The position numbers and the translations under genes were made by a program. The notes under the pieces are model-generated. The model was not told where the DNA came from. It did no database searches and saw only the letters and a list, made by a program, of their open reading frames with translations. Positions 1-36,295 of a DNA stretch of 41,756 nt are shown piece after piece. Numbering within the stretch: the stretch's first letter is position 1; the number at the start of each line of letters is the position of its first letter. The stretch is from Pelagibius sp. (GTDB lineage Bacteria > Pseudomonadota > Alphaproteobacteria > Kiloniellales > Kiloniellaceae), in NCBI RefSeq assembly GCF_028289705.1, contig NZ_JANQOI010000040.1:1-41756 (forward strand), written 5' to 3'.

Positions 1-75
1 ACGGCGAGTCCGGCGGCCAGGAGGGCGACAAGGGCGCCATTTTCAGCGCCGAGGGCGGTGAACTGCAGGTCCGCG
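1..75. repeat. Terminal inverted duplication (fold-back) of alaS sequence
   Basis: Bases 1-75 are the exact reverse complement of bases 175-249, with 99 bases between the arms. Both arms encode the same stretch of alanyl-tRNA synthetase but on opposite strands. Read on the minus strand, alaS stays in register down to about base 76 (ending ...VELRVDG) and then turns into antisense of itself, losing all resemblance to the family. A perfect inverted copy at a sequence end, inside a housekeeping gene, is typical of chimeric reads or assembly fold-back. It is very unlikely to be real genome structure. Confidence 0.9.
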
Positions 76-1741
76 CCCCGTCGACCCGCAGTTCCACCGC
101 GTCGCCCACCTTCAGGCTGCCGTGGCCCATGGTGCCGTAGTGGACGTGCAGATCGCCCAGTTTCTTCTGCGTGTCGCGGACCTGCAGTTCACCGCCCTCG
201 GCGCTGAAAATGGCGCCCTTGTCGCCCTCCTGGCCGCCGGACTCGCCGTAGAAGGGGGTCTGGTTGACCAGCAGCTGAACGTCCTGGCCGGCGGAGACCT
301 CTTGCACCTCCTGGCCGTCGACCAGCAGGGCCGTCACCTGGCCCTCCGCGGTCTCGGTGCCATAGCCCAGGAACTCCGTCGCACCCAGGCGCTCGCGCAG
401 TTCGAACCAGAGGGTCTCGGTGGCGGCATCGCCGGAGCCGGCCCAGGCCTTGCGCGCCGCCGCGCGCTGGCGCTCCATCGCCGCATCGAAGCCGGCGTTG
501 TCGAGGCTGCGGCCCTGACCGCGCAAAATGTCCTGGGTCAGATCGAGGGGAAAGCCGTAGGTGTCGTAGAGCTTGAAGGCCACTTCGCCGTCCAGGGCCG
601 CGCCCTCGCCCAGCTTGCCGGTCTCCTCCTCCAGCAGCCTGAGCCCGCGGTCCAGGGTCTCCTTGAAGCGGGTTTCCTCCAGCTTCAGGGTTTCGGTGAT
701 CAGCGCGTCGGCGCGGCCGAGTTCGGGAAAGGCCATGTTCATGAGCGACGTCAGGCTCGGCACCAGGCGCCACATCAGCGGGTCCTTGCAGCCCAGCTTG
801 TGCACATGGCGCATGCCGCGGCGCATGATCCGTCGCAGCACATAGCCGCGGCCCTCGTTGGAGGGCAGCACGCCGTCGGCGATCAGGAAGGCGCTGGCGC
901 GCAGATGATCGGCGATAACGCGGTGGGAGACCGCGTGCGCGCCGTCCGCCGCCTGCCCGGACAGCTCGGCGGAGGCCTCGATGATGGCCCGCAGCAGGTC
1001 GGTGTCGTAGTTGTCGTGCTTGCCCTGCAGCACCGCGGAGATGCGCTCCAGCCCCATGCCGGTATCGATCGAGGGGCGCGGCAGCTCGACCCGGTTGTCC
1101 AGGTCGATCTGCTCGTACTGCATGAAGACGAGGTTCCAGATCTCGACGAAGCGGTCGCCGTCTTCGTCGGGGCTGCCCGGGGGGCCGCCGGGAAGATGAT
1201 CGCCGTGATCGTAGAAGATCTCGGAGCAGGGGCCGCAGGGACCGGTGTCGCCCATGGCCCAGAAGTTGTCCGAGGTGGCGATGCGGATGATCCTGTCTTC
1301 GGGCAGTCCGGCGATCTTCTTCCACAGTTCAGCGGCCTGATCGTCCTCGGCATAGACAGTGACCAGCAGCTTCTCCTCGGGCAGGCCGTATTCCTTGGTC
1401 ACCAGGTTCCAGGCCAGTTCGATGGCCAGATCCTTGAAGTAGTCGCCGAAGGAGAAGTTCCCCAGCATCTCGAAGAAGGTGTGGTGGCGCGCGGTGTAGC
1501 CGACGTTCTCCAGGTCGTTGTGCTTGCCGCCCGCGCGCAGGCACTTCTGCGAGGTCACCGCCCGGCTGTAGGGGCGGGTCTCGTTGCCGGTGAAGACGTT
1601 CTTGAATTGCACCATCCCCGCCGCGGTGAACAGCAGCGTGGGATCGTTGCGCGGGACCAGGGGCGAAGAGTCGACGATCTCGTGGCCGTTGCGCCCGAAA
1701 TAGTCCAAGAAAGCCGACCGGATGTCGTTGCCTGAGTTCAT
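76..1741 (-). CDS. alaS: Alanyl-tRNA synthetase, C-terminal part missing
   Basis: Class II aminoacyl-tRNA synthetase that charges tRNA-Ala in the cytoplasm. The minus-strand product starts [15 protein letters not shown] at the ATG at 1741. It carries the family signatures in order: [18 protein letters not shown] (motif 2 region), the hallmark GPCGPCSEI, and the conserved [17 protein letters not shown] and [13 protein letters not shown] segments. About 555 of the roughly 880 residues usual for AlaRS are present. The catalytic core, tRNA-recognition region and start of the second beta-barrel are here; the editing domain and C-Ala are missing. The break at about base 76 coincides with the fold-back duplication at 1-75, so the truncation is probably an artefact of the sequence end and not a broken gene. 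It lies downstream of recA on the same strand, a common alphaproteobacterial pairing, although the oppositely oriented ialB gene separates them here. Confidence 0.95.
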
Positions 1742-14487: not shown

Positions 14488-17400
14488 CTAATTGAACTGG
14501 CTCAGTTCACCGTCTTTCAGGCGCTCGCGGTAGTTGGCCATGAAGTCCTGGGCCTTCACCACCTTGCTCAGCTCGTCGGCGATGGTGGTGATCGCCGACT
14601 TCTCGCCGTCCCCCACCAGCAGGGTGAAGGTGTCGCCGTGCGGGCCCTTGGCCATGGCCGCACCATAGCGCCGGTTCAGGTCTTCCAACTCGACGGCCTT
14701 CTCCGAGAGCATCAGGGCCACCGCCAGATTCACGACCAACTGGCTCTCTTCCAGGGTCATGGGACGGCGCGGCGGCAACAGGGGCACCAACTGCGACAGC
14801 GAGTCGACAGCCTCAGGCCATTGCCGCAGGCGCCAATGAATGTCAGCACGCAGGGTTTCCGCATCCAGGCTGTCGTCGCCCTCCAGTAGCTCCAGGGCAT
14901 CCTCCGGCCGGTTGAGATCGGAGAAGGCGCGGGCCCGCAGTTGGCGCCGTTGCATGCCGAGCCCCCGGTCAACTTCGTCAACGGCGCTGAGATCCAGGGC
15001 GGCGAGACTGCCCTCGGGGTTGCGGTCGAGAAGATGGACCAAGGCAAGACGGGCACCGATGCGCGCTTTCTCCTCGCCTTCCAGGCGATAGCGCACCTGC
15101 CCTTCCAACAGCTCCGCCGCCCGGTCCAGCAAGTCGACTTCGACCAGCCGATCGGCCAAGCTGGCGATCAGCCGGTCGCCTTCGGCTCCGGCGGGGGTGA
15201 GTTCCTTGAACTCCTGGTAGAGCGCCAGGGCGCGCAGAGGGGGCACCGCCGGATCGCCGGCCCCGCGATAGATCTCGGCGAAGAGCGCACGCATGCGCTG
15301 GGCCGAATCGCGGGCGCCGGGGCTGTCGGGGAAACTGGTCACGGCCTGGCGCAGGGCATAGAGCGCCTCGCGATGCCGGTTCTCGTCTTCATAGAGCTGT
15401 GCCAGGCGGCGCAGCAGGGTGAACTCGAACTGATCGCCGCGCCAGGCAAAGCGCAGGCGCTCCAACTCGGCGATCGCCTCTTCCACGGTGAGCGTGCCGT
15501 CCTCCAGACCGAGGTCGATCAGCGCCAGGCGCGCCCGCGCCTGCGACGGGCGGTGCCGGCTGTCGCGCGCTGCGGTCCATAGGGCCCGGGCCTCACCCGC
15601 CTCGCCCTTTGCAAGCTGGAGTTCGCCCTGAACGACCTGAAGCTGGGCCTCCTGGCTCGGGGACAGCCCATGCCGGCGCAGGCGGCCGAGCTGCAGCGTG
15701 GCGTTGCCCGTGTCGCCCGCCCTGAGGAAGGCCTCGGCGGCGGCCAGGCGCAGCTTCAACCTGACCCGGGGCGGATAGCTGTCGATCAGGCTTTCGGTAA
15801 CGGCAAATCCGCTGGCGGCGGCCTCCCAGTCCTCCGACTGAGCGGCCAGCACCGCCTGCCACAACAAAGCCTCGCGCTCGCCCAGCAGAGAGGGATGGGC
15901 AAGGCTGGCGGCAGCGCCGCGGAAGTCCTGCATGATCAGTTGGCTGGCCGCGTGCATCAGCCGCAGTTCGGGATCCAGGGCCAGACGCGGATGCTCGGCC
16001 TCGATGAGGCGCAGCGAGCCTAGGGTCTCGCTGGCAAATCCATGGGCGAAATAGAAGCGGGCGAGCGCCACCCGGCCGACGCCCAGACGCTCGCCGGTGA
16101 GATCGAGCAACTCGTTCATCAGGATGCCGCGGTTCTCCTGGAAGTTCTCCAGGCTGCCGCGGCGCCAGGCGACGAGATCGAAGAGCCGCGGTTCCGCCGC
16201 GCTCGCATCGCCGGGCCGGCGCGCTTGGCGCCGCTGCTCGGCATCGGAGACCAGCAACCCGCCGGCATCGCGCACCAGGACGCCGGTGCGGGTGACAGCC
16301 ACCTCCAGGCCGGCGCTGAGGGGCTGCAAGATCACACCTTGCTGGCTCTGCAGGCTGCGGAACTGCGGATAGTTGTAGGGCAGCGTCAAGCCCATGCCGG
16401 CGCCGCGGGTGGGCACGATGACCAGGCGGTCGCCGGCATCCGGATCCGTGGCCCAAAGCAGCCGGTCCGCGCCCGACATCGGGAAGCGAACCCGGTTGTA
16501 GTCGCCGCTTTCCACCACGGGCGCCGCCAGCGCCCTCTGCGGCAAGGCGCTGCGCGGGCGGAGATCGACGATCCAGCGGTTGTCCTCACGGGTCAGCCGC
16601 GGCGCCACGGTCGGAAGCGCATTGATGGCCACAACCGTCGCCCCGGGCACGTCCAGCAGGCGCACACTGCCCAGATGCGGGGCCACCGCGGCGACGGCCT
16701 TTTCAAGATCGCGCGGCGGCGGCCGGTCGAAGGCCAGCCAGAGATTCTCGCCACGGCGAAACGCGGCGGCGCCGGCAGGCCGGTCCCATTCGAAGGTCAG
16801 GACCACGGGGTCGAAGCGCTCGGCGGTCGGCCCCTGGGCCGACGAGCTGTCGAAGGTCAGGACCGGTTCAACCGAAGCTTCCAGACGGCCGCGCTCGGCC
16901 TCGGGGATCACCGCCGCCGCCGGAGCCGCGCCGGGTGACGCGGCCGGATCCGCCCCGGCCTTGAGCGCCGCCTCAACCGCCGAAGCGGTATCCGGCGGTG
17001 ACTCTGGAGCCGGCTTTACGGCCTCTGAGGAGGGTGCGCTTGCAGCCTCCGACACCTGATCCGCCACAGCCGGTGCGTCCTCGGCCGTGCCGCCCATGGA
17101 TTGAGGAACCAAGGGCGTCGGTGCGGCCTCGTCGGGGGCCTCGCCAGGGGTCGCGTCGGAGGGCTTCCGCGCAGTCTCCGCCTCGGCATCCGGCACCTTG
17201 GCCGCCGCCTCGGTTTGCGGAGCCGCATCCGCCGGGGGTGTCGGATCGGATTGCGCCGCGTCTTTTGGCTCTGGCCGCGGCGTCAGGTCCACGACCGCGG
17301 GCGGGTCGCCGGCAGGCTTCGGCGCGGAGGCAGTGCCGGCGTCCTCCGCGCCGAAGACATCCAGAATGACCTTGGTGCCGCTGCGGGAAAGCTTCGGTTT

Positions 17401-18045
17401 GGCCTTCGTCGGCAGGATGACGGCAACACCGTCCTCCTCGGGGGTCACCGCGGCGATCTGGGGCAGGCCTTCCGGCCGCACCGCCGCGAGGTCGAAGGCC
17501 GCCTTACGGTCGAAGACAACGCGCAGGCGCCCCGGCGTTTCCTCCAGACGGCTTTCCACCGGCTCCGGCCAGTCGAAGACCAGGCGGCTGTAATCCGGAT
17601 GCCGGCCCCCGCGCACCGTTACCTTCGGCAAGCTCTCGTTTGAGCTGCCAGCCGCCTGCTCGGCCTCCGCCGGCACGGCGCCGGCGGAGGAAGCCGGCTT
17701 GGCGCGAAGGTCCAGAACCACTTTGGATCCGATGCGGAAGTGCTTCAGTTCGGCATCGCCATTGAGCGGAAAGATCAGCCCGCGGCCATCCTCGGCGCGT
17801 TGTGGAGCCGCCGCGTAGCCGCGCAGCCCGCCGCGCAGCGGTGCCCCGGAAAAATCCGCCGGCTCGGCAAAGGTGACGACCAGGGACCCTTCGGAGATGC
17901 GCGCCTCGTAGCCGACCTCTCGCGGCCAGTCGAAGACCAGGCGCCCGTAGTCCTCGTGCAGGCCGCCGCGCAGGGTGACCTCTTCGGCGGCTTGAGCCGA
18001 GGGTGCCCAGACCAGGAGGATCAGCAGGACCAGCCGGCGCAGCAT
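14488..18045 (-). CDS. Large exported protein with AMIN-like repeats and TPR-like region
   Basis: A 1185-residue protein with a clear signal peptide (MLRRLVLLILLVWAPSAQA, cleavage near residue 20). Two homologous beta modules follow at about 22-115 and 140-232; each opens with VT(L/V)RGG-H-DY-RLVFDWP and ends with a GSKVVLDLRA or GTKVILDVFG strand, resembling AMIN-type peptidoglycan or envelope-binding domains. Residues 233-390 are an Ala/Pro/Asp/Glu-rich linker. A third diverged module (395-497) and another beta-rich stretch (505-605) precede a long helical TPR-like region (about 640-1185). Its ATG shares one base with the stop of the MotB-like gene upstream (TGATG), so translation is coupled. 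I know no experimentally defined function; a periplasmic motor or stator scaffold is inferred from context. Confidence 0.9.
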   Translation of the reverse strand: MLRRLVLLILLVWAPSAQAAEEVTLRGGLHEDYGRLVFDWPREVGYEARISEGSLVVTFAEPADFSGAPLRGGLRGYAAAPQRAEDGRGLIFPLNGDAELKHFRIGSKVVLDLRAKPASSAGAVPAEAEQAAGSSNESLPKVTVRGGRHPDYSRLVFDWPEPVESRLEETPGRLRVVFDRKAAFDLAAVRPEGLPQIAAVTPEEDGVAVILPTKAKPKLSRSGTKVILDVFGAEDAGTASAPKPAGDPPAVVDLTPRPEPKDAAQSDPTPPADAAPQTEAAAKVPDAEAETARKPSDATPGEAPDEAAPTPLVPQSMGGTAEDAPAVADQVSEAASAPSSEAVKPAPESPPDTASAVEAALKAGADPAASPGAAPAAAVIPEAERGRLEASVEPVLTFDSSSAQGPTAERFDPVVLTFEWDRPAGAAAFRRGENLWLAFDRPPPRDLEKAVAAVAPHLGSVRLLDVPGATVVAINALPTVAPRLTREDNRWIVDLRPRSALPQRALAAPVVESGDYNRVRFPMSGADRLLWATDPDAGDRLVIVPTRGAGMGLTLPYNYPQFRSLQSQQGVILQPLSAGLEVAVTRTGVLVRDAGGLLVSDAEQRRQARRPGDASAAEPRLFDLVAWRRGSLENFQENRGILMNELLDLTGERLGVGRVALARFYFAHGFASETLGSLRLIEAEHPRLALDPELRLMHAASQLIMQDFRGAAASLAHPSLLGEREALLWQAVLAAQSEDWEAAASGFAVTESLIDSYPPRVRLKLRLAAAEAFLRAGDTGNATLQLGRLRRHGLSPSQEAQLQVVQGELQLAKGEAGEARALWTAARDSRHRPSQARARLALIDLGLEDGTLTVEEAIAELERLRFAWRGDQFEFTLLRRLAQLYEDENRHREALYALRQAVTSFPDSPGARDSAQRMRALFAEIYRGAGDPAVPPLRALALYQEFKELTPAGAEGDRLIASLADRLVEVDLLDRAAELLEGQVRYRLEGEEKARIGARLALVHLLDRNPEGSLAALDLSAVDEVDRGLGMQRRQLRARAFSDLNRPEDALELLEGDDSLDAETLRADIHWRLRQWPEAVDSLSQLVPLLPPRRPMTLEESQLVVNLAVALMLSEKAVELEDLNRRYGAAMAKGPHGDTFTLLVGDGEKSAITTIADELSKVVKAQDFMANYRERLKDGELSQFN

Positions 18046-18812
18046 CAGCGCAGCTCCGCCGCATAGGCATGGATCACGATTTCGACCCGCCGGGCCGCGG
18101 CCATCGCGGCCTGGCTGTCCGCGGGATCGGCGGGGGCCCGGTACTGCGCGTGCCCATAGCCGCGGACCAGGATTTCACCCTCGTAGCCACCCTCCCCCAG
18201 CATCGCGGACAGGACCGTGGCCCTGGCCAGCGAGAGCTCCCAGTTCGTCGCGTAGGTCCGCCGCGGCTTCAAGGGATCGGCATAACCGGCAATCTCGACG
18301 ACATTGCGCAGATTGCCCAGCACCGCGCCCAGCGCGAAGATCGAACCGCTGGCAGCCTCGCCGAGATCCGTGGAGCCGGAGGCAAAGAGCAGGTCCCCCG
18401 GCAAGGCAAGGGTGATCCGCTCGTCCGCATGGGCCACCGTGGCTTTGGCCAGGATCGGATCTTCGGCCATCTGCTCCTGAAGCAGGCTGAAGAGATAGTT
18501 CAGATCGGTGCCGGGAATGCGCTCCACCTCCTCAGCGTCCTCATCGGCGCTGGGCATGGCGACGGTGACCTCCTGAAGACCGGAGAGCCGCGGCGAGAGG
18601 GCATCCACCAGGTTCTGCCAGTCGTCATCGTTGATCGTCGACATGGAATAGAGCAGCACGAAGAAGGTGAGCAGCAGGGCGGTAAGATCGGTGAAGGTGA
18701 GCAGCCAGGCCTGGCCGCCGTTGTCGATCCTGCCCCGATAGGCGGGCCCGCCCAGGCTCAGACCCTGCCAGGGGCTGGCCTTGGGTCTCTTTGACTTGGC
18801 CCGCTGCGGCAT
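18045..18812 (-). CDS. MotB-like stator protein with OmpA-like domain
   Basis: A 255-residue protein with one N-terminal membrane helix (AWLLTFTDLTALLLTFFVLLYSMS). It contains Asp42 at the place of the ion-conducting Asp of MotB/PomB, and a periplasmic OmpA-like peptidoglycan-binding domain. That domain reads EIAGYADP (Asp179, but Tyr-Ala in place of the usual His-Thr), then TNWELSLARATV and finally ARRVEIVIH. The NWELS-ARA pattern is typical of MotB and not of general OmpA. No motA is in the window, so its channel partner must be encoded elsewhere. It follows a second MotB-like gene after three bases and overlaps the giant AMIN/TPR gene. It could be the true stator B subunit or an accessory one. 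Confidence 0.85.
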   Translation of the reverse strand: MPQRAKSKRPKASPWQGLSLGGPAYRGRIDNGGQAWLLTFTDLTALLLTFFVLLYSMSTINDDDWQNLVDALSPRLSGLQEVTVAMPSADEDAEEVERIPGTDLNYLFSLLQEQMAEDPILAKATVAHADERITLALPGDLLFASGSTDLGEAASGSIFALGAVLGNLRNVVEIAGYADPLKPRRTYATNWELSLARATVLSAMLGEGGYEGEILVRGYGHAQYRAPADPADSQAAMAAARRVEIVIHAYAAELR

Positions 18813-18815
18813 CGG

Positions 18816-19493
18816 TCACCCGCCCCCTGCGGCTGCCGGGCGCCCGTCGCTGTTCGGCAATGGCAAGGTGAAATGAATGCGGACCTGGCCGGAAAAGGAC
18901 GGCATGAAGCCGGTCGAGAGGTGGGCGGAGGGCACCGCATCCTGCTCCAGCGTCCGCACCAGGGCGCCGGCCCGGCGCAGCTCCAGCAAATGGCCCGGCG
19001 TGGCGGCATCGCCGGCCTCGAGCCCGTAGAGGAAGTCGACCTGATAGTCCTGGTCGGCGTATCGCTCGTCCGTCAGGACCGCGGCGATGGCCTTGAGGGT
19101 GTCCAGGCCCTGCCCGCTCACTACCGGGCTGTTGTCGGCGAAGAGATCGCCGGCGGGCATGTCCACCTGCAGGGTCCGGGTGTTGGCGGCATCGCTGCGC
19201 TGGACCACCGGAAGGGTATCATCGAAAAGCCGGCCGAGGGCCTCGGCGATGTCTTCCTGTCCTTCGAAGATATCGAGGGCGGCAGCTTCGGAGGAACGGC
19301 TGTGATCCGCCGGTACGATGCCGCGAAAGGCTTCCCGCACGCTTTCGAGAACCGCCGTGCTGCGCTCGTGTTCAAAGTTCGAGAGGGCATTCAGCAGAAT
19401 GAAGAAGGCCAGCAGCAGCACCTTCAGGCTCAGCAGCGCCATGATGTGGCTATTGCTCTGCTGCTGGCCGGGTCGGAGCTGAGGGTCCGACAT
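18816..19493 (-). CDS. Degenerate MotB-like protein lacking the ion-binding Asp
   Basis: A 225-residue protein with an N-terminal membrane helix (HIMALLSLKVLLLAFFILLNALSNF) that aligns with the helix of its downstream neighbour (LLLAFFILLNALS with LLLTFFVLLYSMS). The position of the stator Asp is Ser22. The periplasmic part keeps an OmpA-like outline (LQVDMPAGDLFADNSPVVSGQG, LLELRRAGALVRTLE) but has lost the GHTD and NRRVEI-type motifs. It therefore cannot conduct ions as a normal MotB and may not bind peptidoglycan in the normal way. It starts seven bases after cheZ. A partner subunit for the MotB-like protein is the simplest inference. Confidence 0.8.
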   Translation of the reverse strand: MSDPQLRPGQQQSNSHIMALLSLKVLLLAFFILLNALSNFEHERSTAVLESVREAFRGIVPADHSRSSEAAALDIFEGQEDIAEALGRLFDDTLPVVQRSDAANTRTLQVDMPAGDLFADNSPVVSGQGLDTLKAIAAVLTDERYADQDYQVDFLYGLEAGDAATPGHLLELRRAGALVRTLEQDAVPSAHLSTGFMPSFSGQVRIHFTLPLPNSDGRPAAAGGG

Positions 19494-19500
19494 GGTGGGA

Positions 19501-20160
19501 TCACCCGAAGAGGGCGTCGATATCGTCCTGACTGATCGCGTCCTCGGGCAGCTGCGGCCCGTTCATCAGATCCTCATCAGGACGCGCCGGATCACCGCTG
19601 GGGGCCTTGGTCTTCTTTTCCGGCTTCTTCGGCGCATCGGAGGGCATGAGATCGTCACCGAAGGCATGCAGCAGGGCGTCGACCTTGCTTTCGACCTTCT
19701 GCAGCGCGGTCACCACCTTGGTGATGCGCTGGCCGGTGATGTCCTGAAAGCCACAGGCCTCGTAGATCGAGGTGATCGCCGTGGAAACCTGGTCGGCGAT
19801 CTCCTCCGGCATCTTCTCGGCCAGGGCCTCGATGGACTCGACGGCCTCGAAGATGGTGTTGGTCGCCTGTTCCGTGGAGCCGACGATGGCGGAAAGCTCG
19901 TCGGTGGCCGCCGGCAGATGCTCGGCGTTGATGTCGTCCGGGCGCAGGTCCGCGATTTCGGACCTTGCGGTATTGATGTAGCGGGCCAGCGCCTCGATGT
20001 CGGAATAGACCTTGAGGCTGACCGCCGACATGTCGCCTTCGATGGTCTCGACGATCGCTTCGACGATGGAGACGATTTCCTCCGGATCAAGCGATGCGTC
20101 CGCCTTCCGCAGCTCCTGCAGCTGCGATGCGATTTTTTCTTTGACGGCCGCGACAGCCAT
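19501..20160 (-). CDS. cheZ: CheY-phosphate phosphatase CheZ
   Basis: Dephosphorylates CheY-P to terminate the chemotactic signal. The 219-residue, mostly helical product has the catalytic segment CGFQDITGQRITKVV with Asp140 and Gln144 at the positions of the E. coli CheZ active-site pair (D-x3-Q). After a Pro/Lys/Asp-rich linker it ends in DDIDALFG, equivalent to the C-terminal CheY-binding peptide of CheZ. AAGGAG lies seven bases before the ATG. It is downstream of cheY and upstream of the MotB-like genes. CheZ is less common in Alphaproteobacteria than multi-CheY phosphate-sink systems. Confidence 0.92.
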   Translation of the reverse strand: MAVAAVKEKIASQLQELRKADASLDPEEIVSIVEAIVETIEGDMSAVSLKVYSDIEALARYINTARSEIADLRPDDINAEHLPAATDELSAIVGSTEQATNTIFEAVESIEALAEKMPEEIADQVSTAITSIYEACGFQDITGQRITKVVTALQKVESKVDALLHAFGDDLMPSDAPKKPEKKTKAPSGDPARPDEDLMNGPQLPEDAISQDDIDALFG

Positions 20161-20189: not shown

Positions 20190-20579
20190 TTAAAAATTAC
20201 CAAGGACGGCAGTCAGCTTCGTCTTCAGCGTCGCCGCGTTGAACGGCTTGACGATGTAGTTGCTCACACCCGCTTCTTTCGCGGCGATCACGTTCTCGGT
20301 CTTGCTCTCCGCCGTGATCATGATGAACGGGAGCTCCTTGAGCTTGATGTCGGCCCGGACCTCGGTGAGCAGCTGCATGCCGCTCATCGGTTCCATGTTC
20401 CAGTCGGAGATGATCAGGTGATAGTCCTTGTCGCGCAGCTTCTGCAGGGCGGCGCTACCATCGGTGGCTTCATCAACGTTGTTGAAGCCGAGCTGCTTAA
20501 GCAGGTTTCGGATGATCCGCAGCATGGTCTTGTAGTCGTCCACGATGAGGATCGGCATGCCCATGTCGACTGTCGACAT
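20190..20579 (-). CDS. cheY: Chemotaxis response regulator CheY
   Basis: Single-domain response regulator that binds FliM when phosphorylated and changes motor rotation. The 129-residue product has the acidic pair Asp14-Asp15 (ILIVDD), phosphoacceptor Asp59 (LIISDWNMEPMSG), Thr89 (FIMITAES), Tyr108 (NYIVKPF) and Lys111, with GFNNVDEATDG and KEAGVSNYIVKPFNAATL as in CheY of the motor-binding type. AGGAG lies six bases before the ATG. It starts the cheY-cheZ-MotB-like operon, and a CtrA-like box lies about 75 bases upstream. No CheA, CheW or receptor genes are in the window. Confidence 0.96.
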   Translation of the reverse strand: MSTVDMGMPILIVDDYKTMLRIIRNLLKQLGFNNVDEATDGSAALQKLRDKDYHLIISDWNMEPMSGMQLLTEVRADIKLKELPFIMITAESKTENVIAAKEAGVSNYIVKPFNAATLKTKLTAVLGNF

Positions 20580-20693: not shown

Positions 20694-21380
20694 TCACTCG
20701 CGGGGGATGGGAAGTTCTCGCCGCTGCGCCAGCTCAAGAGTGACGGTCTTGGCGCGCTGCGGATTCATCTGGGCCAGGATGGGCGCCGACTTGCGCTCCT
20801 TCATGCGCTCGATCACCTCCAGCAGCACATCCATGTCGAGCTCTTCGAAGATCCGCGCCGCCTGCTTCGGCTTCATGCTCTCGTAGATCTTAACGAGGCT
20901 CTTCATCTGTGCCTCGGTCTGCTCGTCGTGCTGGACCAAAAGCGCCTCGATGGTCTCCTGAAGGCCCTCCAATTCGCGGATCTTCTGCTCGATCCGCTGT
21001 TCCGCCGCCTTGAGCAGCACTTCGCGCTCGTCGACCTCGCGGGCCCGCTGCTCCAGTTCCTCACGGCGTTGGGAGAGCGCCTGCAGCAGGCTGAGTTCCT
21101 CGTCGGTCAGATCGAAGATTTCCGAGGACAGATCGGTGATCTGGCCCTCCGGGACCGGAGCCTCCTCCGCAGCGGTGGCTTCGGCCATTTCGGCCGCCGG
21201 CTCGCCCGCGGTCTCGCCCGCCGTATCGGATCCGGCCTCCGTGGTGAGGGGCGGCGTCTCCGCATTCTCGGCCGCCAGGGCCGGCGCAAAGCCGTTGGCG
21301 CTATGCCAGACACCGGCCAGCTTGGCGGTCATGGCCAGGCCGGCGGCCAGGGCGAAGACGGGGAGAAGACGCAGACGCAT
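20694..21380 (-). CDS. MotE family flagellar protein
   Basis: A 228-residue exported or membrane-anchored protein. It has an N-terminal signal-type segment (RLRLLPVFALAAGLAMTAKLAGVW), an Ala/Glu/Thr-rich linker (about 38-78), and a long coiled coil (LLQALSQRREELEQRAREVDEREVLL...). A C-terminal MgtE-N/FliG-like helical domain follows (KIYESMKPKQAARIFEELDMDVLLEVIERMKERKSAPILAQMNPQRAKTVT). In Sinorhizobium, MotE is the periplasmic chaperone of the stator-associated protein MotC. There is no cysteine in this protein, so the disulfide dimerisation described for MotE cannot occur, and no MotC gene is visible. It is the last gene of fliL-fliM-DUF6468-motE. Confidence 0.8.
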   Translation of the reverse strand: MRLRLLPVFALAAGLAMTAKLAGVWHSANGFAPALAAENAETPPLTTEAGSDTAGETAGEPAAEMAEATAAEEAPVPEGQITDLSSEIFDLTDEELSLLQALSQRREELEQRAREVDEREVLLKAAEQRIEQKIRELEGLQETIEALLVQHDEQTEAQMKSLVKIYESMKPKQAARIFEELDMDVLLEVIERMKERKSAPILAQMNPQRAKTVTLELAQRRELPIPRE

Positions 21381-21406: not shown

Positions 21407-21967
21407 CTAGCGCATCGCCTGCAGCGTGCGCATCAGCTCGCTATCCGAACGGGAGAGCTTTCGCTTGGCCAGCTTGGCGATGCCGTTGGACGGTTTGGCC
21501 GGTTCCGACACCGGCGCTGCCGGGTCGTCCTGCATCGCCTTGCGTTCCATCTTGGTGATGCTCATGGGCGCGCGGTGCAGGGACTGCTTGGTCAGGCCCG
21601 CGGCCGCTTTGGGTTCCTCGCGGTCGTGCTTGCGGGAAGCCGCGATGGAAACTTCCAGCCGGTCGGCAATCTCGTTGCCTTTCTTCAGGAGAAAGGCCAT
21701 CTCGTCGGCCAGGCGGCAGGCGTCGTCGACCTTCTTGGCAAGGCCCTCACCCACGTCCTGGCTGCTGTCCCTGAGCGCCTGAAGGCCGTTTTCGGCCTTG
21801 TCGGTCGCCGCGGCGAAGTCGGCGACAAGCTTCTCCATCTCGCCACGTGCCGCGCGCAGCTCGCTGAGCTTGCGGTTCAGCACGGCGGCAAAGCCGATGG
21901 TGGTCAGCAACAAGACGCAAATGGCGACGTCGAGGACAAGACCGTAGTCTTGCAGCCAGGTCATCAT
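21407..21967 (-). CDS. DUF6468-type membrane-anchored coiled-coil protein
   Basis: A 186-residue protein with an N-terminal membrane helix (YGLVLDVAICVLLLTTIGFAAVLNRKL) followed by a cytoplasmic-looking coiled coil (LSELRAARGEMEKLVADFAAATDKAENGLQALRD...), a hydrophilic middle and a basic C-terminal segment (KLAKRKLSRSDSELMRTLQAMR). It matches what is known as the DUF6468 family, found in alphaproteobacterial flagellar clusters next to fliM and motE; function is undefined. It overlaps the fliM stop by four bases (ATGA), so it is translationally coupled to a switch protein. Confidence 0.75.
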   Translation of the reverse strand: MMTWLQDYGLVLDVAICVLLLTTIGFAAVLNRKLSELRAARGEMEKLVADFAAATDKAENGLQALRDSSQDVGEGLAKKVDDACRLADEMAFLLKKGNEIADRLEVSIAASRKHDREEPKAAAGLTKQSLHRAPMSITKMERKAMQDDPAAPVSEPAKPSNGIAKLAKRKLSRSDSELMRTLQAMR

Positions 21968-23034
21968 GATTCTCCCTCACGCACGATCTTTTCCGCCACC
22001 TGGACGGCGATGTGGCCGCCGCGCCGGCCCATGCGCCCCTTGAACATCGCGACGTCACCGCAGCGCAGCTCGACCTTGGAGCTGGGGTTGCAGTTCAGGT
22101 CCAACTGGCTGCCTTCGATCCATTCCAGGACTTCGCCCAGGGGCATTTCAACCTGATCCAGGACCGCGTCGATGCTGATGTCGGTCTGCCAGAGCTCGGC
22201 GGTCAGGTGCCCCTCCCAGATGGAGTCGCGGCCGAACTTCTCGCCCATGAACATCTGCAGCAGCAGCTCGCGCACCGGCTCCAGCGTGGCATAGGGGATC
22301 AGCAGTTCGATCAGGCCGCCACGGTCTTCCATGTCGACCCGCAGGGTCACCACGATGACCGCGTTGGCCGGCCTGGCGATAGTGGCGAAGCGCGGATTGG
22401 TTTCCAGCCGGTCGAAGCGGAAGGTCACCGGCGAAAGCGGGTCGAAGGCTGCCGAGAGGTCCGCCAGGACGACATGGACCATGCGTTCCACCAGGTTCCG
22501 TTCGATGGTCGTATAGGGTCGGCCCTCGATCCGCATGGCCGCTGTACCCCGCCGACCGCCGAGCAGCACGTCGACGATGGAGTAGATCAGGGCGCTGTCG
22601 ACGGTCATCAGGCCGTAGTTGTCCCACTCCTCGGCCTTGAAGACGGACAGCATGGCCGGCAGCGGGATCGAGTTCATGTGATCGCCGAAACGCGCCGAGG
22701 TGATGTTGTCGAGGCTGACCTCGACATTGTCGGAGGTAAAGTTCCGCAGCGAGGTGGACATCATGCGGACCAGACGGTCGAAGACCACCTCCAGCATCGG
22801 CAGGCGCTCGTAGGAGACCAGGGCCGAGTTGAGGATTGCCTGGATGCCGGATTCTTCACCGTCGTCGTCGCCGACCCCGGCAACGCCCAGAAGACTGTCG
22901 ATTTCGCTTTGATCGAGAACCCGTGTGGAGCCGCCCGCACCGCCAGCGGGGGCCGCGTCGTCGCCATCGGCCTCGGCCTCGCCCTCCTCGGCCATGGCCT
23001 CCCACTGCTCCATCATCGCTTCTTCGTCGGCCAT
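21964..23034 (-). CDS. fliM: Flagellar motor switch protein FliM
   Basis: C-ring protein that binds CheY-P. The 356-residue product has the CheY-binding peptide VLDQSEIDSLLG at residues 39-50. The middle domain contains LRNFTSDNVEVSLDNITSARFGDHMNSIP, the GGxxG-type LLGGRRG and PYTTIERNLVERMV, and a C-terminal SpoA domain follows (PLGEVLEWIEGSQLDLNCNPSSKVELRCGDVAMFKGRMG). The CheY peptide is normally within the first 16 residues; here an acidic, Gly/Ala-rich extension of about 38 residues precedes it. It lies downstream of fliL and overlaps the DUF6468 gene. FliN and FliG are not in the window. Confidence 0.97.
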   Translation of the reverse strand: MADEEAMMEQWEAMAEEGEAEADGDDAAPAGGAGGSTRVLDQSEIDSLLGVAGVGDDDGEESGIQAILNSALVSYERLPMLEVVFDRLVRMMSTSLRNFTSDNVEVSLDNITSARFGDHMNSIPLPAMLSVFKAEEWDNYGLMTVDSALIYSIVDVLLGGRRGTAAMRIEGRPYTTIERNLVERMVHVVLADLSAAFDPLSPVTFRFDRLETNPRFATIARPANAVIVVTLRVDMEDRGGLIELLIPYATLEPVRELLLQMFMGEKFGRDSIWEGHLTAELWQTDISIDAVLDQVEMPLGEVLEWIEGSQLDLNCNPSSKVELRCGDVAMFKGRMGRRGGHIAVQVAEKIVREGES

Positions 23035-23103: not shown

Positions 23104-23628
23104 CTACTGGACGAGCATCTCCTTGAAGAGCACGTCGCGGACCTGAATCGGCTGTGCTGCGGTATTGACCCGGATCAGCAGCTCCTCGCGCAGCCGCTGC
23201 AGACCTGCCGAGCCACGGAGGTCTTCGATGCGAAGCTCACGCAGATAGACCTGGAAGTTGTCAACGACGCGTGGCAGCAGGGTCGTGATCTCGTCGCGGT
23301 CCGCCTCGTTGGTCAGCTCCAGGCTGATGGAAATCTTGAGGTAGCTTTTCTTGCGGCCGCTGGAGTTGAGGTTCACCAGCATCTCCGGCAGGTCGTAGAA
23401 GACCGCCTTGCTGGCAACCGGTTCGATCACTTCCTCGACCACCGGCTCCGGTTCCTTGCCGAGCAGAGGGTCGAGCAGACCCGCCATGAAGGCGCCGGCA
23501 CCGGCGGCGATCAGCAGAAGGATCGGCAGGATGATGAAGAGAACCAGCTTCTTGCCGTTCATGCCCCCTTTCGGGGTCGCTTCGATCTCGACGTCAGCGA
23601 TGTCCTGAGTAGCCGCCTCATCGGCCAT
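23104..23628 (-). CDS. fliL: Flagellar basal body-associated protein FliL
   Basis: Single-pass inner-membrane protein that surrounds and supports stator units. The 174-residue product has a short cytoplasmic tail, one membrane helix (KKLVLFIILPILLLIAAGAGAFMAGLL), and the periplasmic FliL/SPFH-like domain. That domain reads FYDLPEMLVNLNSSGRKKSYLKISISLELTN and ends RVNTAAQPIQVRDVLFKEMLVQ. The ATG at 23628 is preferred; the in-frame TTG at 23637 is an alternative. It opens the fliL-fliM-DUF6468-motE operon and has a CtrA-like box about 60 bases upstream, as fliLM does in Caulobacter. Confidence 0.95.
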   Translation of the reverse strand: MADEAATQDIADVEIEATPKGGMNGKKLVLFIILPILLLIAAGAGAFMAGLLDPLLGKEPEPVVEEVIEPVASKAVFYDLPEMLVNLNSSGRKKSYLKISISLELTNEADRDEITTLLPRVVDNFQVYLRELRIEDLRGSAGLQRLREELLIRVNTAAQPIQVRDVLFKEMLVQ

Positions 23629-23687
23629 TGCAGTCAACCTATTCAGTTATCTTGAGTTTTCGACTGCCTAGAGCCTACGGATGGTTG

Positions 23688-34090: not shown

Positions 34091-35431
34091 TCACACGGCG
34101 AAGAAGGACATCAGCTTGGTGACGTTCGGATCGAAGACATCCGGATGCCGCCGGGTCTGAATCAGGGATGCCGTGTAGACGTTGTCCCAGACAGTCCCCG
34201 AAACGAGCACCATGAAGAGCAGCCGGGCATCGACAACGAACTCGATGTGCTGGCGGTTCTCGTCCGCCTCGGCCGGCGCCTCCGGCGCGGCGAGATCGAA
34301 GGTGTAGGAAAGCTCGACCGGCCCCAGGGTGTCGCCGGGCTGAACCGAGCCCAGGGGCTCGACCCGCAGCGTCACCAGCCAGTCCGGAAAGAGATCGAGG
34401 CTCTCCTGCCGCCGCCAGAGGTTCTGGCGGGCGCGGCGCAGCATGTTGGGCAAGAGGATGCGGAAGGACTCCGGAATGCAGATCCGCTCGTGGTCGAGCT
34501 GCCTCGCCGCGGCCTCCGCCGCCGCTTCCCGATAGGAAACCGGCGTTCCGTTCCCCCGCGCCAGGGACCGGGTTCCGTCACGCAGTTCCAGGCGGTCCCG
34601 CGATTCCATGGATAGGAGCTCGGTGCCCGTGGGCAGCCGGTGACGCTGTTCCTGCATCACCGCTTCATCGGGCAGGATCTGGGCGAACTCGGCCAAGGGC
34701 GCGAGCGCACCGTTCAGCGTGCAGCCGCCGCAGGGAATGGCGATCCGCGGTTCCAGCCCCGCCATCGCGTCATAGAAGCGCAGCGTCGTCTTGCGGATCA
34801 GTTCTCGGCGCTTCTCCGCCTTCTGGGCATCGTCGTAGTTCAGCATGCACTGCGGATAGGAACTCGCCGATGAACAGACCATGGCGGCGGCGTCAGGCTG
34901 GCCGTACCTGCTGGCAATGCCTTCGGTCTGCCGCCGCGTCGGGATGTCGTCATTCAGATTGAGAAAGCTGACCCCGTCCCGGTCGCGGATGAGAATGGCG
35001 CTGTCGAGCTGGTAGCCGACCTCATCGGTCGGCGCGTCGCTGTCGGTCGAGAAATCATCGAACAGGACGACCGAAAAGGAACCGATGGACTGCTCTTCCT
35101 CGAAGGGAACCTCGACGATGTTCCTCATCCCCAGGCCCTTCAGGCAGCGGCTCAGATGGGGCTGGGCGCGCTTGCCGATGATGACCGGCGTTTCCTTGTC
35201 GAGTTCCTTGAGAACCTCGGGATCCAGATGATCGGCATGGAGATGGCTGATGAAAACGTAATCCGGCGGATTCTCGCTCAGCAGATGGCGCCGGTAGTCC
35301 GGGCTGATGGGCGGATAGAGCGCCCAGGCGCCATGGAAGGCGTTGGTCGAGAACCACCAGTCCAGGGCGATGGTCTCGCCGGACTGCAGCCCGACCAGGA
35401 AGCCGGTGTTGCCCAGGTACTCGATGTCCAT
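34091..35431 (-). CDS. Metallo-beta-lactamase-fold protein, possibly sugar-nucleotide modifying
   Basis: A 446-residue cytoplasmic protein. The N-terminal half is a UlaG-like metallo-beta-lactamase fold with HLHADHLD at residues 63-70 (His63, His65, Asp67, His68) and further metal-region segments such as AMVCSSASSYPQCML. The C-terminal part (HIEFVVDARLLFMVLVSGTVWDNVYTASLIQTRRHPDVFDP) resembles the region seen after the hydrolase-like domain in CMP-N-acetylneuraminate hydroxylase-type proteins. No Rieske cysteine/histidine motif is present. It is the last gene of the flagellin-to-modification series and starts three bases after the methyltransferase stop. Modification of a sugar nucleotide for flagellin glycosylation is an inference from context and loose similarity. 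Confidence 0.75.
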   Translation of the reverse strand: MDIEYLGNTGFLVGLQSGETIALDWWFSTNAFHGAWALYPPISPDYRRHLLSENPPDYVFISHLHADHLDPEVLKELDKETPVIIGKRAQPHLSRCLKGLGMRNIVEVPFEEEQSIGSFSVVLFDDFSTDSDAPTDEVGYQLDSAILIRDRDGVSFLNLNDDIPTRRQTEGIASRYGQPDAAAMVCSSASSYPQCMLNYDDAQKAEKRRELIRKTTLRFYDAMAGLEPRIAIPCGGCTLNGALAPLAEFAQILPDEAVMQEQRHRLPTGTELLSMESRDRLELRDGTRSLARGNGTPVSYREAAAEAAARQLDHERICIPESFRILLPNMLRRARQNLWRRQESLDLFPDWLVTLRVEPLGSVQPGDTLGPVELSYTFDLAAPEAPAEADENRQHIEFVVDARLLFMVLVSGTVWDNVYTASLIQTRRHPDVFDPNVTKLMSFFAV

Positions 35432-35434
35432 GCG

Positions 35435-36295
35435 CTAGGCTTCCAGGGTCATGTAGGCCGCCATATTGCGGCCGATCCCGGCGGCCGCACAGCCGCACCG
35501 GAAGGCCAGCAGCTTCTCCAGAGACTGTTCGCAGAGCGCCACTTCGAAGTCGACACGGGCGAAGTGCGCCGCCCGGCCCAGGCTGCGCTCCCTGGCGTAG
35601 TTGCTGGCGTCGTTCACCTGATAGAGCTCGATGGGAAAGGCGGTCAGGATCTCACGGAGATGCCAGCCGACCCGCTCCAGCAGGGCCTGCAGGCTCTCCA
35701 CCGTGAAGTAGCTCAGGTGCTCCGGCGGGCAGACCCAGAAGTCCGGGCGCGCATGGCCAAGCTCGACCACCAGTTGCTGCAGCCAGGAGCCGTCGTTGGG
35801 AACCGCGAGGCGCACAACGCCACCGGGCGCCACCACGCCCTTCAGGTCCTCCAGCAGCTTCAGCGGATCGATGACATGCTCCAGCACGTTGTTGCAGACC
35901 ACCAGGTCGTAGCGCGCGCCGCCTTCCGCCTCGCGGGTCAGCAACTCGAAGAGGTTGCCGGTCTCGAGTCTGTCAATCAGTTCGGGAAAATGCCGCTCGA
36001 CCCCCTGCGCGGTGAAGTCCAGGCCGCGCACCGCCCAGTCCCGCTCGCTGAAGTACTTGAGAAAAAAGCCTTCCCCGCAGCCTACGTCGAGCAGGCTGCC
36101 GGAGCTCAAGCCGCTGACGGCGCCGGCTTCCCGGCAGTCGATGTACTTGTGAAGGATTTCCTTGTCGGTGTAGTCCTTGGCGTACTGATTCTTGCTGTCT
36201 TCACCAAAGTAGAGGTCGTTATAGAAGGCTTCCAACTCCTGGGGAGTCGGCTTCTCGGTGACGGTGGCAAAGCCGTCTGCGGTGGTCAGTAGCAT
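35435..36295 (-). CDS. Class I SAM-dependent methyltransferase
   Basis: The 286-residue product has the AdoMet-binding motif LDVGCGEG at residues 69-76. The acidic loop after strand 2 (RGLDFTAQGV) and the motif IV/post-I region YDLVVCNNVLEHVIDPLKLLEDLKGVVAPGGVVRLAVPN are present. The VLEHV-P and C-terminal EHLSYFTVESLQALLERVGW pattern is that of Methyltransf_23-type enzymes acting on sugars or small molecules of surface polysaccharide pathways. The extreme C terminus carries two close cysteines (RCGCAAAG) of unknown role. Located between a TPR-glycosyltransferase and the metallo-hydrolase. Confidence 0.88.
   Translation of the reverse strand: MLLTTADGFATVTEKPTPQELEAFYNDLYFGEDSKNQYAKDYTDKEILHKYIDCREAGAVSGLSSGSLLDVGCGEGFFLKYFSERDWAVRGLDFTAQGVERHFPELIDRLETGNLFELLTREAEGGARYDLVVCNNVLEHVIDPLKLLEDLKGVVAPGGVVRLAVPNDGSWLQQLVVELGHARPDFWVCPPEHLSYFTVESLQALLERVGWHLREILTAFPIELYQVNDASNYARERSLGRAAHFARVDFEVALCEQSLEKLLAFRCGCAAAGIGRNMAAYMTLEA

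Follow-up and report, generated by a model that had tools for sequence, protein, structure and literature searches.

The locus and its genes

The window, a 41,756-nucleotide stretch of Pelagibius sp. (contig NZ_JANQOI010000040.1), carries on its minus strand a run of genes in the order fliL-fliM-DUF6468-motE-cheY-cheZ-motB1-motB2, the last member of which, after motB2, encodes a 1,185-amino-acid AMIN-TPR protein (Table 1). A preliminary description had given this open reading frame (14488-18045, 1185 residues), its overlap with a MotB-like gene, a signal peptide, and an operon with cheY and cheZ. All four stand, with the minus strand now added: CheY and CheZ are encoded upstream on the same strand, base 18045 belongs both to the ATG and to the stop of the preceding MotB-like gene (18812-18045), and the N-terminus MLRRLVLLILLVWAPSAQA is signal-peptide-like (judged without a dedicated predictor), with no further transmembrane-like stretch above a crude hydropathy cut. 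The frame is genuinely open, and plus-strand translation of the same span is interrupted by stops. It is not a chance frame, because alignment A1 contains 6 sequences 61-68% identical to it and 16 at 33-43%. A sequence scan gave 0 promoter-like sites, and 7 terminator-like sites against 5.5 expected.

Table 1. Coordinates of the AMIN-TPR gene, its parts and its neighbours in the window
Feature	Position	Strand	Basis
FliL	23104..23637	-	Pfam
FliM	21964..23034	-	Pfam
DUF6468 protein, at pflI position	21407..21967	-	Pfam
MotE/FlgY/FlbB-type protein	20694..21380	-	MgtE_N; NCBIfam FlbB model below its cut-off
CheY-type response regulator	20190..20579	-	Pfam
CheZ	19501..20160	-	Pfam
MotB1: MotB paralogue, Ser replaces channel Asp	18816..19493	-	Pfam, alignment
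MotB2: MotB plug and OmpA domains, channel Asp present	18045..18812	-	Pfam, alignment
AMIN-TPR protein, 1185 aa	14488..18045	-	ORF, homologue alignment
Signal-peptide-like N-terminus, residues 1-20	17986..18045	-	sequence, hydropathy
AMIN-like module 1, residues 21-116	17698..17985	-	model, Foldseek, hhalign
AMIN-like module 2, residues 140-233	17347..17628	-	model, Foldseek, hhalign, Pfam on homologues
Acidic Ala/Pro linker, residues 234-411, poorly conserved	16813..17346	-	composition
AMIN-like module 3, residues 412-499	16549..16812	-	model, hhalign
Further beta domain, residues 505-595, not AMIN by profile	16261..16533	-	model, hhalign
TPR superhelix, residues 624-1144; best conserved 860-1010 (15016-15468)	14614..16176	-	model, Foldseek, conservation

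The nine-gene order was intact in 30 of 35 loci, the remaining 5 being interrupted by contig ends. A motE-type gene adjoins the family gene in 33 of 40 loci from the class, picked to cover the score range and to take in exceptions; four homologues (L236, L249, L251, and L256) lie apart from any flagellar genes recognised. The DUF6468 gene is present in Caulobacter as well. The genome of the window has one MotA_ExbB match, a 243-aa ORF taken as a putative TolQ/ExbB type, and the missing motA is read as an assembly gap because five relatives (G002, G003, G007, G013, and G019) have a motA-type gene on the same contig, 38-93 kb from the family gene.

Domains and folds

Residues 21-245 were modelled by AlphaFold2 as two beta modules (mean pLDDT, 90.2). 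The model of residues 375-1185 (mean pLDDT, 86.3; pTM, 0.74) has a further beta domain after the third beta module and then about 30 helices, bearing out the long TPR-like superhelix anticipated from the sequence. The three AMIN-like modules matched one another in pairwise hhalign comparisons (1-2, 99.9%; 1-3, 97.5%; 2-3, 98.2%). Models and hhalign thus confirm the first two modules, formerly set at 22-115 and 140-232; the third, formerly set at 395-497, exists as an AMIN-like module, with a start that had been put about 17 residues too early. The acidic Pro/Ala linker was likewise recovered from composition (26% Ala, 17% Pro, and 31 acidic versus 11 basic residues). A fourth AMIN module in the further beta domain was considered and ruled out (hhalign, ≤2.3%).

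Pfam searches with the protein alone gave TPR and AMIN-like matches, all under curated cut-offs, and the sole PF11741 (AMIN) match in the genome was a different ORF, so AMIN identity was judged by fold and by a scan of homologues. In an AMIN alignment of 66 sequences, the AMIN-like family PF24837 matched 56 and AMIN PF11741 matched 19 (E ≤ 0.001). Foldseek with residues 21-245 placed a type IV pilus machine chain at the top (E, 1.1e-4) and AmiC (4bin) third (probability, 1.00; E, 0.065), with small heat-shock and p23 folds also among the matches; a PDB sequence search with the same residues returned no match. Between 0 and 3 AMIN modules were detected per homologue, counts from the module-alignment set being lower bounds wherever contigs end. 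The scan of the 40 chosen loci left out the L260 row, and zero counts in it are not proof of absence, because hhalign detects N-termini in L252, L253, and L259 that the AMIN profiles overlook.

For residues 375-1185, the first-ranked of 350,542 PDB chains in Foldseek was 9hmf_K (E, 9.8e-10; next match, 2.0e-8), which belongs to the Campylobacter flagellar scaffold 9HMF and which we infer to be PflA; global TM-scores of this match were low (0.26 and 0.27) at 10% identity, and generic TPR proteins followed close behind. A PDB sequence search with the same residues found solely TPR, TPR-like, and designed chains, none with a flagellar-protein name. Structure prediction and Foldseek, which the preliminary description had named as a check, therefore return an AMIN and TPR fold rather than an unrelated one.

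Relatives and occurrence with flagella

PflA of Campylobacter jejuni has in common with the present protein an AMIN-type beta-sandwich, a linker, and a TPR superhelix, and the FlgY-type protein encoded in the operon adds to the likeness. PflA has one AMIN domain and about 16-17 TPRs, whereas our protein has three AMIN modules and about 30 helices in the model. In Campylobacter, PflA pairs with PflB at the rim; it is reported to form spokes and to have an AMIN domain (PMC11870540; PMC12222027), and PflA-type proteins are stated not to keep sequence similarity across taxa (PMC11870540).

MotK of the Cereibacter sphaeroides Fla2 system is described with the same order of parts, namely a signal peptide, an N-terminal AMIN-type domain, a linker, and a C-terminal TPR region, and with a gene next to motE within the fliL operon, a setting equivalent to that found here (PMC10954123). 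By the same account, MotK is shorter (652 aa, with one AMIN domain, against 1185 aa with three and a further beta domain), and motK follows motA2, whereas our gene follows motB1-motB2. Rotation is reported to depend on both MotK and MotE, which bind each other and MotB2 (PMC10954123).

By sequence, the family is linked to proteins encoded at the motK gene position of Rhodobacterales-type loci. Compared by hhalign with three such proteins, the family profile scored 98.2% and its TPR part 98.3%, against 2.6% for an unrelated TPR protein used as a control. Two motK-position proteins were found directly by the family profile (L252, E 1.4e-7; L253, E 5.9e-6); the Paroceanicella protein at this position gave no direct profile match at E ≤ 0.1 and 13% when aligned alone by hhalign. 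Beyond Kiloniellales and Rhodospirillales, the profile extends to Azospirillum, Erythrobacter, Sulfitobacter, and the Rhodobacterales-type motK-position genes, and this span makes an alphaproteobacterial spoke searchable by sequence.

FssB (CC_2058) of Caulobacter crescentus, as described, resembles our protein in its secretion signal and TPRs (PMC7885107) and in its AMIN-like N-terminus and the position of its gene after motE (PMC10954123); the Caulobacter protein is stated not to be similar to MotK by BLAST (PMC10954123). Deletion of fssB is reported to leave cells that make filaments and are nonmotile, with a paralysed flagellum (PMC7885107). A review places MotC of Sinorhizobium and FlcB of Borrelia in the periplasm as partners, rich in TPRs, of MotE or FlbB, and describes MotC as having TPRs without AMIN, unlike our protein (PMC13023049). 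The scaffold class is already known (FssB, 2021; MotK, 2024; PflA and the E-ring, 2025-2026), and our protein differs from the descriptions of MotK and PflA in its three AMIN modules versus one.

Among 41 related genomes, the family gene and FliM occurred together in 36 and were both missing in 5. In 385 alphaproteobacterial genomes (213 matches for each, treated as one sample because genome handles agree), 196 had both, 17 the family gene alone, 17 FliM without a family match, and 155 neither; FlhA was also missing in 6 of the 17 genomes with the family gene and without FliM. Homologues therefore mostly track flagella, rather than lying away from flagellar genes in non-flagellated species.

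A candidate stator scaffold and the MotB pair

We consider the protein to be most probably a periplasmic spoke of the motor's stator scaffold, the counterpart of MotK, FssB/CC_2058, and, by architecture, PflA. A PflA-like periplasmic stator scaffold had been proposed earlier, and the proposal is supported by the AMIN and TPR fold, by the occurrence of homologues mostly with flagella, by the conserved gene order with fliL, motE, and motB, by the 9HMF chain at the top of the PDB matches, and by the profile link to the motK-position gene. Counting against it are the low TM-scores and the closely following generic TPR proteins, the small heat-shock and p23 folds matched by the AMIN part, the Paroceanicella protein that the profile does not reach directly, the four homologues apart from flagellar genes, and the genomes with FliM or the family gene alone. 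It is strengthened beyond its original case by that profile kinship and by the MotE/FlgY/FlbB-type gene in the operon, the Cereibacter homologue of which is reported to bind MotK (PMC10954123). Under this proposal, the protein would be exported by Sec, and the conserved face of its superhelix (residues 860-1010) would dock on the MotE-type protein, which may ring the MS-ring; the same face could also dock on MotB2, whose gene overlaps by one base. The AMIN modules, on their long acidic tether, might reach peptidoglycan and/or FliL, such that the protein would keep stators at a constant radius and bias MotB toward its open, wall-bound form. If so, a deletion mutant should keep its filaments, and these should not turn. 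The gain and loss of AMIN modules (0 to 3) can be traced across the family, and this variation makes it testable whether stator anchoring requires the wall-binding end.

It is improbable, though the strongest of the alternatives, that the protein is instead a stator activator, a MotE-stabilised periplasmic protein (compare MotC of Sinorhizobium) that would bind MotB to release the MotB plug and would be no ordered part of the motor. MotE was originally described as a MotC chaperone, activation would account for the reported binding by MotK and the paralysis just as well as recruitment would (PMC10954123), and suppressors of fssA, another motility mutant, are reported to map to the MotB plug (PMC7885107); the length of our protein, its superhelix, and its match to the Campylobacter scaffold favour a structural part, and a review argues that MotE is an E-ring component (PMC13023049). 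Far less probable is a peptidoglycan-site factor whose AMIN modules direct a wall enzyme or flag the site of motor insertion: AmiC, whose structure (4bin) residues 21-245 match, is targeted by its AMIN domain, and homologues have up to three such modules, but Pfam finds no enzyme domain in the protein, its neighbours are motor genes rather than wall enzymes, and filaments are reported still to assemble without the putative homologue fssB (PMC7885107). A type IV or Tad pilus protein lying in a flagellar operon by accident, to which two T2SSF genes near homologue L236 would point, is the least credible, given that occurrence tracks FliM and FlhA, that the operon is conserved, and that FlhA is present in the genome of L236 itself.

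Beside the candidate spoke gene, the MotB genes form a pair. In 85 of 86 loci, MotB1, encoded just before the live MotB2, has Ser, Ala, or Gly in place of the channel Asp, whereas MotB2 keeps the Asp in all 86 readable loci; these loci are partly redundant (a named and an unnamed locus may be one genome) and in part served to train the profiles used. The two occurred together in 21 of the 40 chosen loci, were both missing in 19, and were never found singly. Among the literature matches listed, none described an Asp-less MotB paralogue, which is weak evidence of absence, and the Asp-less MotB1 may be a newer finding than the scaffold. One speculative and rather doubtful arrangement is a stator of a new design with a heterodimeric B subunit, in which MotB2 would supply the ion-binding Asp and MotB1 would be a conserved dead partner. 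Its MotA would come from a gene at another point of the flagellar region, and the triple-AMIN/TPR protein would be the spoke tying this one-sided stator to a MotE ring and the wall. A live and dead MotB pair would test the assumption that both stator B subunits need the ion-binding residue.

Architecture of the AMIN-TPR protein and its motor-gene run

The open reading frame and domain organization proposed in the preliminary description, including the single base shared by its ATG and the stop of the second of two tandem MotB-like genes (MotB1 and MotB2), were confirmed. The gene, which we call AMIN-TPR, is the ninth and final gene of a run starting with FliL, and gene spacing suggests a single transcript. 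Its third-position G+C was 0.83, against 0.82-0.86 in the other genes of the run.

Genes of the FliL-to-AMIN-TPR run (contig positions) and domains of the AMIN-TPR protein (residues)
Feature	Position	Strand	Remark
FliL	23637-23104	minus	
FliM	23034-21964	minus	
DUF6468 protein	21967-21407	minus	
MotE/FlgY/FlbB-type protein	21380-20694	minus	
CheY	20579-20190	minus	
CheZ	20160-19501	minus	
MotB1	19493-18816	minus	
MotB2	18812-18045	minus	
AMIN-TPR protein	14488-18045	minus	1185 residues; ATG overlaps MotB2 stop by base 18045
Signal-peptide-like start	before residue 21		N-terminus
AMIN-like module 1	21-116		
AMIN-like module 2	140-233		
Acidic Ala/Pro linker	234-411		
AMIN-like module 3	412-499		
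Further beta domain	505-595		
TPR superhelix	~624-1144		

The three AMIN modules were mutually related (97.5-99.9%, profile-profile). Among 80 family proteins (79 homologues from the named genome collection plus the AMIN-TPR protein), 63 had three modules, 12 had two, and 5 had one, these counts being lower bounds at contig ends. Forty loci of the class, picked to span scores and include exceptions (L260 row disregarded), gave three modules in 18, two in 9, one in 6, and none in 7, where zero does not mean absence because the AMIN HMMs overlook N-termini that hhalign detects (L252, L253, and L259). Conservation was highest in the TPR part, above all at residues 860-1010 (mean identity, 0.58; AMIN modules, 0.36-0.39; linker, 0.20).

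Shorter TPR-family members without an AMIN module by HMM were seen in Erythrobacter (L258:8512-10158), Sulfitobacter (L257:8227-10044), and L237:9096-11060, and are perhaps AMIN-less, MotC-like forms. The homologue at L039 (G011, a metagenome-type assembly) has a TAA stop inside the frame. The window encodes a second, unrelated TPR-rich protein (36363-38516, minus strand; 717 aa), whose neighbors (34091-36295) look methyltransferase- and metal-dependent hydrolase-like by eye; this region possibly has a role in flagellin modification.

Occurrence and gene order

In 41 genomes (the window's own plus 40 relatives), the gene and FliM were found in the same 36, and both were absent from 5. Across 385 alphaproteobacterial genomes, 196 had both the family profile and FliM, 17 the profile only, 17 FliM only, and 155 neither. 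FlhA was present in 11 of the 17 profile-only genomes (in G163 by a fragment); family matches in the other six were at E values of ~2-4e-4 (four genomes), 1.4e-22, and 1.8e-31, the last two being G255 and G351, which had no FliM or FlhA match. FlhA was found in all five FliM-only genomes examined; therefore, some flagellated species have no detectable family member. Relatives were encoded in 326 stretches of the named collection, of which the best 80 were retained as 79 loci; within these 80, Pelagibius and other Kiloniellaceae were closest, and further members included Thalassospira, Rhodospira, Roseospira, a Magnetovibrio, and a SAR116 genome.

All nine genes occurred in 30 of 35 loci from relatives, the remaining 5 ending at contig edges, and a motE-type gene adjoined the family gene in 33 of the 40 chosen class loci. 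A plasmid search with the AMIN-TPR protein returned 11 records; the three inspected all sit in flagellar clusters, with the family gene 3' of fliL-fliM-DUF6468 (Erythrobacter aureus), among flg genes (Sulfitobacter), or adjoining motA-motB and flgFGAH (Azospirillum brasilense, L259:8269-10653). In contrast, no flagellar neighbors were recognized around the family genes at L236, L249, L251, and L256; these genomes (1.4-2.6 Mb) carry FliM or FlhA.

Homology to motK-position proteins, predicted fold, and proposed role

The recognized order in L252 and L253 was fliL-motE-motA-TPR; that reported for Cereibacter (PMC10954123) is fliL-pflI-motE-motA-motK. Paroceanicella profunda, a named Rhodobacterales record retrieved with L252 (E value, 4e-14), has fliL, two nameless genes (the second matching the MotE profile; E value, 2e-26), motA, and a large gene. 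In whole-genome searches, the profile of residues 375-1185 matched the TPR protein at this motK position in L252 (1.4e-7) and L253 (5.9e-6); other, presumably unrelated, TPR matches reached ~2e-4. Profile-profile alignment of the family with motK-position proteins gave 98.2% across 401 columns (TPR part alone, 98.3%; control with the window's other TPR protein, 2.6%), and motK-position N-termini scored 96.7% to AMIN1, 97.8% to AMIN2, and 2.5% to AMIN3. The Paroceanicella protein on its own scored 13%, with no direct family-profile match at E≤0.1. The Azospirillum (99.8%), Erythrobacter (100.0%), and Sulfitobacter (98.4%) proteins also matched the family, the first with one AMIN-type N-terminus (hhalign, 96.3%). 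The family profile joins forms that BLAST had not joined; the homology concerns proteins at the motK gene position.

AlphaFold2 models were confident (mean pLDDT, 90.2 for residues 21-245 and 86.3 for 375-1185). For residues 21-245, the first structural match was a chain of the type IV pilus machine (E value, 1.1e-4), PilQ on our reading of its chain name, and the third was AmiC (probability, 1.00; E value, 0.065). High-probability matches at E values >0.05 included small heat-shock and p23 folds. For AMIN3-beta-TPR, the top match among 350,542 chains was 9hmf_K, which belongs to the Campylobacter jejuni motor's periplasmic scaffold (E value, 9.8e-10; runner-up, a eukaryotic chain, 2.0e-8). 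In the 9HMF paper, the model of mature PflA starts at residue 16; the 773 residues of 9hmf_K agree with this if PflA is 788 residues long, and on this basis we infer that the chain is PflA. TM-scores were low (0.26 and 0.27) and identity was 10%; the match therefore reflects like architecture, not descent.

In Cereibacter, flagellar rotation is reported to require MotK and MotE, which bind each other and MotB2 (PMC10954123). PMC13023049 and PMC11870540 regard MotE, FlgY, and FlbB as E-ring proteins, and MotK (Cereibacter), MotC (Sinorhizobium), and CC_2058 (Caulobacter FssB) as PflA- or FlcB-like partners. Deletion of fssB is described in PMC7885107 as leaving cells nonmotile yet with filaments. 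PMC11870540 reports that Campylobacter FliL interacts in two-hybrid assays with the isolated PflA AMIN domain, not the whole periplasmic region, and that PflB is wrapped by a PflA loop. The preliminary suggestion that the AMIN-TPR protein may be a stator scaffold gains support from architecture, motor-gene order, occurrence, and motK-position homology. By analogy, it would most likely be a spoke linking a ring of the MotE-type protein to wall-bound stators; its export, wall binding, and partners we infer. The kind of protein is already known, and the Pelagibius form is a multi-AMIN variant.

The tandem MotB pair and motA

The tandem MotB pair may be newer biology than the scaffold protein. MotB1 and MotB2 aligned over 191 columns (98.7%, profile-profile). 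The channel aspartate of MotB2, at what we take to be the equivalent of MotB Asp32, was found in 86 of 89 loci; the other three are cut at that site, hence 86/86 readable. At this site, MotB1 of 86 loci had Ser (57), Ala (16), Gly (12), or Asp (1). Both genes were present in 21 of the 40 class loci and both absent in 19, never split. From sequence, this would look like the pattern expected of an obligate live/dead pair; on an equal footing, MotB1 may be an accessory protein.

In relatives (L177, L179, and L180; names partly by eye), the fliF-flhA cluster includes a lone motA-type gene with no motB partner; in five relatives, such a gene is 38-93 kb from the AMIN-TPR gene on the same contig. 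A separate MotB with the usual Asp motif occurs elsewhere, in L182 and L185, with motA adjoining in L182.
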